In this document: positions 15,735 through 24,877 of the stretch, in pieces | Numbering within the stretch: position 1 is the first letter of the stretch | Layout: each line of letters begins with the position of its first letter | Assembly (NCBI GenBank): GCA_026988575.1 | Contig: JALSKZ010000081.1 | Span: 1 to 32,080, forward strand | DNA: 32,080 bases | Source: Thermodesulfobacteriales bacterium | Lineage (GTDB): Bacteria > Desulfobacterota > Thermodesulfobacteria > Thermodesulfobacteriales > Thermodesulfatatoraceae | Direction of reading: 5' to 3' | Notes under the pieces: model-generated | Seen by the model: only the letters and a program-made list of their open reading frames with translations | Database searches by the model: none | Told to the model about the DNA's origin: nothing | Program-made: the position numbers and the translations under genes

Positions 15735-16208
15735 GTGCGTAGTATTCGTCTCCGTCCAGCTAGGAAAAAGGACCTTGAATCTATTTATTTTATAGAAAGG
15801 CAGTGTTTCCCTACCCCTTGGAGTGGTGCCTTATTCCTTTACGAACTAAAAAAGCCTTACGCCAGGTTGTGGGTCTTAGAACACAAAGAGAAAATCATAG
15901 GCTATATTTGTTTTTGGATAGTGGCCGGTGAACTACACCTGGCCAATATTGCTGTAGATCCCGCATGGAGGCGTCGGGGTTTAGCCACCTTTATGTTACA
16001 GACCATGTTTCGTTATGCCCGAAAAAAGGGAGCCAAGAGGGTCTTATTGGAGGTGCGCCAAAAAAACCTTGCGGCTCAAACCCTTTATAAACGTCTGGGG
16101 TTTCAGGTGGATGGGCGTCGTAAACAGTATTATTCTGATACCAAAGAAGACGCTATTCTCATGTCTTTAGATCTAAAATGTGTTCGGTGGACAAACTTAC
16201 GCAAATAA
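15735..16208 (+). CDS. rimI: Ribosomal-protein-alanine N-acetyltransferase (RimI-like GNAT)
   Basis: 157 residues. GNAT fold with the acetyl-CoA loop in LANIAVDPAWRRRGLATFMLQ, the ERQCFPTPWSGALF start typical of RimI, and LEVRQKNLAAQTLYKRLGFQ near the end. RimI acetylates the N-terminal alanine of ribosomal protein S18. Start GTG 15735 has no strong ribosome site; the next in-frame choices would cut the fold. It overlaps the downstream radical SAM gene by 31 bases. Other GNAT substrates are possible. Confidence 0.88.
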   Translation: MRSIRLRPARKKDLESIYFIERQCFPTPWSGALFLYELKKPYARLWVLEHKEKIIGYICFWIVAGELHLANIAVDPAWRRRGLATFMLQTMFRYARKKGAKRVLLEVRQKNLAAQTLYKRLGFQVDGRRKQYYSDTKEDAILMSLDLKCVRWTNLRK

Positions 16209-17152
16209 AGCGTTACCATACGTTAAACCACTTTTTGCGGGTTCATTTTGGCCAAAGGGTCCAAAAAGTCACCATAGATGCTGGTTTTACTTGCCCTGTA
16301 CGCGACGGTACAAAGGGCCACAAAGGGTGCCTTTATTGTAATGCTTATGGCTCTGGAAGTGGGGCAGCACAACTAGGGCTAGATATTCGGACACAAATGT
16401 CTCAAGGGATGGAACGTCTGGCCCGACGGTATAAGGCCAAGAAATTTTTGGCCTATTTTCAGGCCTATTCTAATACCTACGCCCCTTTAGAGGTGCTGAA
16501 AAAACGCTATGACCAAGCCCTGATAGACGAACGCGTAGTGGGTTTGTGTATTGGTACCAGGCCAGACTGTGTAGACGAAAAGGTGGTAGATCTACTGGCC
16601 TCTTATTCCCAAAAGGGCCTTATGGTCTGGCTGGAATTAGGGCTCCAAAGTATTCACGATAAGACCTTGAGGGCTATAAACCGTGGACATACTTATGCTG
16701 ATTTTGAAAGGGCCTTGTTCAAGGCCAAGGAGAAAGGGCTTTTGGTGTGTGTGCACATAATATTTGGCCTCCCTGGAGAGGGGCCCGAAGAGATGCTTGC
16801 CACCGTAGAAAGACTGGCCGAACTCCCCATAGACGGGCTCAAATTTCATGAATTATATGTAGTACAGGGTTCAGGCATGGAAAACCTCTATCGTCAAGGG
16901 CTTTATACACCCCTTAAACAGGATGAATATGTAGACTTGGTCTGTGAGGCCCTGGCCCTGTTGCCTTGGCGTGTGGTAATTCAACGCCTCACGGGAGACC
17001 CGCGTCCCTATGAATTAATAGCTCCTCAATGGGCCAGGGAAAAGAGACAAACCATAGAAAAAATAGAGGCTACCCTGTTGGCCCGTGATTTGTGGCAAGG
17101 TAAATGCAGGGGAGAACCTGATCCATTGATGCGCGAGGTCACGCCCCCTTGA
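16178..17152 (+). CDS. YhcC-type radical SAM protein (TIGR01212 family)
   Basis: 324 residues. The Fe-S cluster region is CPVRDGTKGHKGCLYCNAYG: the family's CxxxxxxxxxxxCxxC spacing, with GFTCP before it, differs from the common CxxxCxxC. Further motifs are AYFQAYSNTYAPLEVLK, IGTRPDCV, WLELGLQS, NRGHTYADFERA, FGLPGE and LKFHELYVVQGSG. This family (COG1242) is widespread and of unknown substrate. It starts within rimI, has no space for a terminator (8 bases to the convergent gene), and ends the rightward block that began with kdsA. Confidence 0.92.
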   Translation: MCSVDKLTQIKRYHTLNHFLRVHFGQRVQKVTIDAGFTCPVRDGTKGHKGCLYCNAYGSGSGAAQLGLDIRTQMSQGMERLARRYKAKKFLAYFQAYSNTYAPLEVLKKRYDQALIDERVVGLCIGTRPDCVDEKVVDLLASYSQKGLMVWLELGLQSIHDKTLRAINRGHTYADFERALFKAKEKGLLVCVHIIFGLPGEGPEEMLATVERLAELPIDGLKFHELYVVQGSGMENLYRQGLYTPLKQDEYVDLVCEALALLPWRVVIQRLTGDPRPYELIAPQWAREKRQTIEKIEATLLARDLWQGKCRGEPDPLMREVTPP

Positions 17153-17160
17153 GTTTTTTA

Positions 17161-17412
17161 TCAACCTGGTTTAAAGCTTATTAAGCGGGTGATCTTTTCT
17201 GAAGAGCTGTATAAACAATGGAGACTATGGACCTCTAAAGTGAGGAGAGAAAAGTCTCTGTTTTTGTTATTTTTTAGGACTTTTACGTCTTGTAAAAAGA
17301 TACGTTGATTGACAAATCCTAAAAAACGCCCTTTATATAGGACACCATTTTTGTCTCTAATGGTGACCCTTTTACCTATAAAATCTTTATACCAGCTCTT
17401 AGCCCTGGCCAT
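17161..17412 (-). CDS. Small protein with an Sm-like sequence pattern
   Basis: 83 residues, basic, no signal or membrane segment. Residues 12-45 (IGKRVTIRDKNGVLYKGRF then LGFVNQRIFLQDV) closely follow the Sm1 pattern of LSm proteins: a first strand with V-x-I, a turn with NG, Y-K-G-R-F, then F-x-x-x-x-I-x-L. The usual Asp and Asn that bind uridine in this region are replaced (Val and Phe). The C-terminal EKITRLISF could be the Sm2 strand, though without the RG/KG pair. Hfq also has this fold, but this is not a typical Hfq. It follows merR by 138 bases and converges on the YhcC gene with 8 bases between stops. No function can be stated; ATG 17412 is chosen since it has GGGG 6 bases upstream. 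Confidence 0.7.
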   Translation of the reverse strand: MARAKSWYKDFIGKRVTIRDKNGVLYKGRFLGFVNQRIFLQDVKVLKNNKNRDFSLLTLEVHSLHCLYSSSEKITRLISFKPG

Positions 17413-17550
17413 TGGCTACCCCATAAGAGGAACTTTCCGTTTTCTCCTTTGGCATTTAATCTAAACTTAAAGTTTACCCGAAAAGTTTAAAAATAATAAT
17501 TGATATTTCTGAAATTTATTTTTAATAATTTTTATGTTTAATCGAAGGAT

Positions 17551-17898
17551 CTACCCTTCTAGCAAATCCAAAAGATTTTGCAGTTCCTGATAGATTTCGT
17601 GGAGTAGTTTTTCGGCGTTTTTTGAGGGTAGAGAAGGGGATATATCTTTTTGTCCCAGGCGTTTTTTGGCCCCGGCTATGGTATAGCCTTCTTCGTACAA
17701 CAGGTGCTTAATGGACTGAAAGAGTTTTACTTGTTCGGGAGAATAGAAACGGCGGCCGCCTATACGACGAGGGCGAATATAGCGCTGAAATTCCCTTTCC
17801 CAAAAGCGTATTACGTGTGTCTCCAGTTCCAGGAGGCGTGCTACTTCACCGATAGAATAAAATCGCCGGTCTTTGGTCCTCCCGGCCTTTCTATTCAA
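17551..17898 (-). CDS. MerR-family transcriptional regulator
   Basis: 115 residues, winged helix domain with RFYSIGEVARLLELETHVIRFWEREF and RRIGGRRFYSPEQVKLF, then a short helical tail. The usual MerR effector-binding cysteines are absent, as in the short members that follow ihfA in many Desulfobacterota and Proteobacteria. TTG 17898 overlaps the ihfA stop (TTGA), so translation is probably coupled; AAGGAG lies 14 bases upstream, somewhat far. Target unknown. The 14-base palindrome at 17900-17913 sits immediately before it. Confidence 0.9.
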   Translation of the reverse strand: MNRKAGRTKDRRFYSIGEVARLLELETHVIRFWEREFQRYIRPRRIGGRRFYSPEQVKLFQSIKHLLYEEGYTIAGAKKRLGQKDISPSLPSKNAEKLLHEIYQELQNLLDLLEG

Positions 17899-18194
17899 GG
17901 TTGATTAATCAACTCCTTTAAAGTGGGACTGGGACGAAAGACCACTGTTTTTTGTCCCTTTATTTCAATGGGCCGACCGTCTTTGGGACTTATTCCTTTA
18001 CGCGAAGGTCGCTGGTAGGGCTCAAAATTGCCAAAGCGGACTATTTTCACCTCTTCGCCACGTTCAAGGGCCATTTTTATCTCCTCAAATAGTCGGTCCA
18101 CTACCTGGGAGAGACTCCGGGCAGAAAAGCCCGTTTGTTCGTTTAAAAAGCGCACGATTTCTTTTTTGGTGACGGTGTGTATCTTTTTTATCAT
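17895..18194 (-). CDS. ihfA: Integration host factor alpha-like protein
   Basis: 99 residues of the HU/IHF family. The N-terminal helix (VTKKEIVRFLNEQTGFSARSL), the VKIVRFGNFE stretch, and the arm region PKDGRPIEIKGQKTVVFRPSP are typical. The arm loop has PKDGRPI rather than the HU NPQTG, as in IHF. Its place directly after pheT (1-base overlap) and before merR is the classical IHF-alpha order. It bends DNA and, with sigma-54, assists activator looping. Confidence 0.95.
   Translation of the reverse strand: MIKKIHTVTKKEIVRFLNEQTGFSARSLSQVVDRLFEEIKMALERGEEVKIVRFGNFEPYQRPSRKGISPKDGRPIEIKGQKTVVFRPSPTLKELINQP
17900..17919. promoter_or_regulatory. Perfect palindrome overlapped by an IHF-consensus-like site
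   Basis: GTTGATTAATCAAC at 17900-17913 is a perfect 14-base palindrome in the last codons of ihfA, immediately before the merR start. Bases 17907-17919 (AATCAACTCCTTT) fit 12 of 13 positions of the IHF consensus WATCAANNNNTTR. It could be a MerR or IHF autoregulatory site, or chance from the LINQP codons. Confidence 0.4.
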
Positions 18195-24802: not shown

Positions 24803-24877
24803 TGGTAGGCGCGGGCGGGATCGAACCGCCGACCTCTTGCGCGTCAAGCAAGCGCTCTCCCACTGAGCTACGCGCCT
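24803..24877 (-). tRNA. tRNA-Val (anticodon GAC)
   Basis: 75 bases with encoded CCA. Acceptor AGGCGCG pairs with CGCGCCT, discriminator A. D-arm GCTC...GAGC, anticodon stem CTTGC/GCAAG with loop TTGACGC, variable loop AGGTC, T-arm GGCGG-TTCGATC-CCGCC. U33 and the loop place GAC at 34-36, which reads GUC and GUU valine codons. A TTGACA -35 box lies 47-52 bases upstream and a strong terminator follows. Confidence 0.96.

Follow-up and report, generated by a model that had tools for sequence, protein, structure and literature searches.

Hfq homologues are missing from about half of bacteria, according to an Hfq survey cited in PMC9029176. The stretch of DNA analysed here (32,080 nt, hereafter the window) encodes an 83-aa protein on its minus strand that has to be compared with Hfq and with the Sm proteins of the other domains. 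Like bacterial Hfq (PF17209), it is predicted to be a bacterial Sm fold, and it has the same spacing between strands 2 and 3 as Hfq of the phylum. However, its family gives no match to the Hfq profile, has no YKHA-type Sm2 when aligned with Hfq of the phylum, and showed no similarity to three phylum Hfq sequences in hhalign. Membership of Hfq was rejected on the missing PF17209 match and the missing profile similarity. With archaeal SmAP1 and the eukaryotic Sm/LSm proteins (PF01423) it shares the predicted fold, the hydrophobic and glycine pattern of Sm1 and the form of a small, basic, stand-alone domain. In contrast to them, it is bacterial, falls below the Pfam cut-off, lacks both the Sm1 D-x-x-M-N loop and the Sm2 R-G, and has one residue fewer in going from strand 2 to strand 3, the canonical spacing from the strand-2 glycine to strand 3 being 15. 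Lastly, some members of the family show weak matches, in the Sm-like N-terminal half, to DUF6897 (PF21838), the MM0924 family (NF041655) and the Ataxin-2 SM domain (PF14438), all of them under the curated cut-offs.

Hfq was sought with PF17209 (curated match, 27 bits). With positive controls, the profile found no match in the source genome, the 83-aa protein included, and none in the 41 genomes searched in the class (G000-G040; 0/41). The same profile matches 41/148 genomes across the phylum and 5/14 control genomes, so that poor sensitivity is an unlikely reason for the lack of matches.

A conserved gene tail to tail with mnmL/ytqA

The 83-aa ORF is a real, conserved gene. It lies exactly where the preliminary description had placed it, at 17161-17412, and has the 83 residues and basic character given there (predicted pI 10.3; 9.3-10.3 across all six members of the family); its strand, which that description did not give, is the minus strand. 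ORF length alone is no proof of a gene here, as the surrounding sequence also holds spurious ORFs of 84-102 aa. A search of the genome contigs with the single sequence returned zero homologues, and the family alignment was needed as the query to recover them. Conservation in sister genomes had been proposed as a check, and homologues were found in 5 of the 148 relatives examined (6 genomes with the source genome), all of them Thermodesulfobacteriaceae, with 33-41% identity to the 83-aa protein in the six-row family alignment. This amounts to 5/9 of the other Thermodesulfobacteriaceae genomes, and among the 395 phylum genomes sampled the LSm-like family occurs only within its own taxonomic family. 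Between the five other homologues dN is 0.04-0.35 and dS is saturated; the 83-aa copy is the most diverged of the family. We accept the ORF as a gene because of these five homologues, the low dN and saturated dS among them, and the match between the family profile and that of another LSm-like family (see below). For the source genome, the AT content of the gene is unusually high (36% GC), with a GC1 of 0.39 against 0.59 in pheT and mnmL. A mobile origin was considered and rejected, with zero matches in plasmids, phages and viral contigs.

The conserved neighbour, on the opposite strand, is mnmL/ytqA (16178-17152, plus strand; TIGR01212, E 3e-110), which encodes a tRNA-modification radical SAM protein. 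Only 8 bp separate the stops of the two genes in the source genome, and in 5/5 relatives they are likewise tail to tail, overlapping or within a few bp of each other. The LSm-like gene does not adjoin mnmL in G003 and G004 and was not found in G005 and G007; being absent or not found in these four genomes, it is therefore not essential to Thermodesulfobacteriaceae. A different gene, of 90 aa, stands tail to tail with mnmL at the LSm site in G003 and G004 (L039:1225-1497 and L041:1013-1285, both plus strand).

The upstream side is less constant. In the source genome the order on the same strand is pheS, pheT, a gene for an IHF/HU-family DNA-binding protein (ihfA; 17895-18194, minus strand; PRK00285 IHF alpha, E 4e-23, below cut-off), a merR-like regulator gene (17551-17898, minus strand; MerR-type matches), an AT-rich leader of 138 nt (17413-17550, minus strand) and the LSm-like gene. 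It had been suggested that the gene ends a translation operon and that its place after merR might be conserved in sister genomes. The operon argument applies to the source genome only, and conservation after merR was rejected: in 4/4 relatives with a visible upstream gene, that gene is not merR and instead encodes a 230-aa membrane protein with an HPPAAST motif, which we take to be HPP-type. The sequence of the leader is not conserved among relatives, and a conserved leader RNA or promoter was rejected, as the leaders align poorly and there is no Rfam match near the LSm-like gene. No sigma-70-like site was found on the minus strand within the 138-nt leader. Across the window, the tRNA and Rfam searches matched only a tRNA-Val (GAC), at 24803-24877 (minus strand).

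Predicted fold and the Sm1- and Sm2-like segments

The 83-aa protein is confidently predicted to adopt the fold of the Sm/LSm superfamily, with an N-terminal helix followed by a five-strand barrel. The AlphaFold model built from the six-row alignment (pLDDT 81, pTM 0.71) has a helix at residues 7-11, strands at 15-20, 25-34, 37-47, 50-60 and 64-69, the last two of them linked by a short helix (61-63), and a further short strand at 74-77. Foldseek analysis against the PDB gave 222 matches at E<=0.001. The best 50 of these 222 are all Sm/LSm-fold chains, almost all of them archaeal SmAPs or eukaryotic Sm/LSm proteins, with a NatC LSm-like chain included, and their TM-scores to the target are mostly 0.7-0.85. 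A model with an orthologue as the first sequence (pLDDT 83.5) has the same topology, and its best 50 PDB matches are likewise all of the Sm/LSm fold; the two models share one alignment and are thus not fully independent. The monomer prediction that had been proposed as a check thus returned an Sm topology in two models and, with no match to PF17209, agrees with the earlier view, in which the protein is a diverged LSm and no typical Hfq.

At the sequence level no curated family reaches its cut-off with the 83-aa protein. Single-sequence Pfam searches gave SM-ATX (PF14438) at E 0.0044 and 17.6 bits against a curated cut-off of 29.8, and LSM (PF01423) at E 0.012 and 15.7 bits against 23.4. Moreover, LSm6 and Sm F ranked first when the family profile was compared with the PDB, albeit weakly (E 0.08-0.1). 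The profile search put forward in the preliminary description thus gave weak matches that point to Sm proteins, with those to curated families all below their cut-offs. Weak LSM-profile matches in 33 class genomes were set aside; beyond the two LSm families, these are mostly short stretches in ORFs of ~500 aa.

Residues 12-45 carry an Sm1-like pattern, in line with what had been claimed for them (IGKRVTIRDKNGVLYKGRFLGFVNQRIFLQDVKV). Within the Sm1-like segment (codons for residues 12-44, strands 1-3; 17281-17379, minus strand; family alignment, with strand limits from the model) the glycine and hydrophobic positions are kept, whereas the D and M-N contact residues are absent. Five residues, N35, R37, F39, L40 and D42, are invariant in the six-row family alignment. 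The turn between strands 2 and 3, N35-Q36-R37 (N-[GQ]-R across the family), replaces the uridine-contact loop, and the position of the Sm1 aspartate is taken by V34, or by L or M in the relatives. A spacing of 14 separates the glycine of strand 2 from the acid or amide of strand 3, as in the three Hfq sequences of the phylum. The Sm2-like segment (codons for residues 50-70, strands 4-5 with the short helix 61-63; 17203-17265, minus strand; family alignment and model) has an invariant C66-L67-Y68 and no R-G or K-G; it reads E60-V-H in the 83-aa protein and E-T-R in the relatives, with E60 invariant where R-G or K-H would stand. The changed uridine-contacting residues and the Sm2 without its RG/KG pair are thus as first described. 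As the Sm1 aspartate, the turn and the Sm2 R-G/K-H positions are all replaced, the classical uridine pocket is not conserved, and with the canonical RNA-contact residues missing from both motifs it is unlikely that the protein binds uridine in the classical way.

Possible function and its alternatives

We think it fairly likely that the 83-aa protein is a diverged, ring-forming, RNA-binding LSm protein, which would chaperone RNA or act on RNA stability in a lineage that lacks Hfq. By analogy with other LSm proteins, members of this family probably form rings, and these would be held together by pairing of strand 4 with strand 5. We infer that the protein binds RNA, which would be held by a strongly positive surface and not by the classical pocket, whose residues are replaced by the invariant N35, R37 and E60. 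Several observations count against this view: the canonical RNA-contact residues are missing, the matches to curated families stay below their cut-offs, the gene is absent or not found in four other Thermodesulfobacteriaceae genomes, and the copy in the source genome is AT-rich and the most diverged.

Four other explanations were weighed, given here in falling order of likelihood. The protein might be an Sm-fold scaffold or accessory subunit that binds protein and not RNA, like the NatC auxiliary subunit. This would fit the replaced RNA-contact residues and the presence of chains from the NatC complex among the best fold matches of both models, but the pI of 9.3-10.3 in all members favours nucleic acid, and no partner gene transcribed in the same direction is conserved; we regard it as unlikely. 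Distinctly less probable is a highly diverged Hfq that retains the hexameric sRNA-mRNA matchmaking role. The spacing of 14, as in phylum Hfq, and the absence of any other Hfq speak for such a protein, whereas the Hfq profile, the comparison with the three phylum sequences and the missing YKHA motif all speak against it, and the best fold matches are archaeal and eukaryotic chains, not Hfq.

We give slightly less credence again to another small SH3-like barrel, of the Tudor or biotin-ligase C-terminal type, that merely resembles Sm proteins. The single sequence does match Tudor_2 and BPL_C weakly, but these matches are weaker than those to SM-ATX and LSM, and only Sm/LSm-fold chains appear among the best 50 of both models. 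Lastly, the ORF is short and AT-rich and has spurious ORFs of similar length close by; yet its conserved position and the five homologues, among which dN is low and dS saturated, leave next to no room for its being spurious.

A second LSm-like family

The profile of the LSm-like family drew out a second, unannotated family of ~97 aa and, judged from their sequences, the two families are paralogous. Comparison of the two profiles gave a probability of 94% and an E of 1e-7 over 59 columns, with a score of 42.6 where 200 column shuffles reached 25.3 at most, and homology extends over about 60 residues. Unlike the 83-aa family, the second has a lysine-rich N-terminal tail, retains D-R-G in an Sm2-like V/I-D-R-G-Q-T-x-H, and lies at a different site. 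Its matches to SM-ATX (PF14438) reach up to 25.3 bits (cut-off 29.8). In the three loci read (L018:1450-1746, minus strand; L019:1465-1761, minus strand; L020:1441-1728, plus strand) the gene stands between what are presumably a GNAT gene and gltX, beside a presumed UPF0173 hydrolase gene.

The second family is present in 9/9 other Thermodesulfobacteriaceae genomes and absent from the source genome; the hydrolase and GNAT genes still lie side by side there, but the LSm gene has been lost. Both families thus occur in five genomes, the second only in four, and the first only in the source genome. With the second family lost there, the 83-aa protein is the sole such protein found in that genome.

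Taken as a diverged, probably RNA-binding LSm, the 83-aa family may help to replace Hfq. A bolder proposal is that, after a loss of Hfq, the Thermodesulfobacteriaceae came to rely on two paralogous, archaeal-like LSm proteins, one with the Sm2 R-G and the other, the 83-aa family, diverged; these could form a mixed ring where both are present and a homo-ring in the source genome. We put this forward tentatively and consider it rather doubtful. The 83-aa family is small and unnamed, and a conserved, unannotated LSm-like pair in a class in which no Hfq was found is a concrete candidate for the work of Hfq. Moreover, the pair suggests that Sm folds in bacteria vary more widely than the Hfq profile would lead one to think, and it bears on the question of which proteins do this work in bacteria without Hfq.

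Elsewhere in the phylum there is one distant relative of the second family, a frame of 150 aa that runs off the end of its contig in G081 (L033:1-450, minus strand). It has a charged N-terminal region, and its C-terminal half resembles the second family (VDRSQIVHVH).
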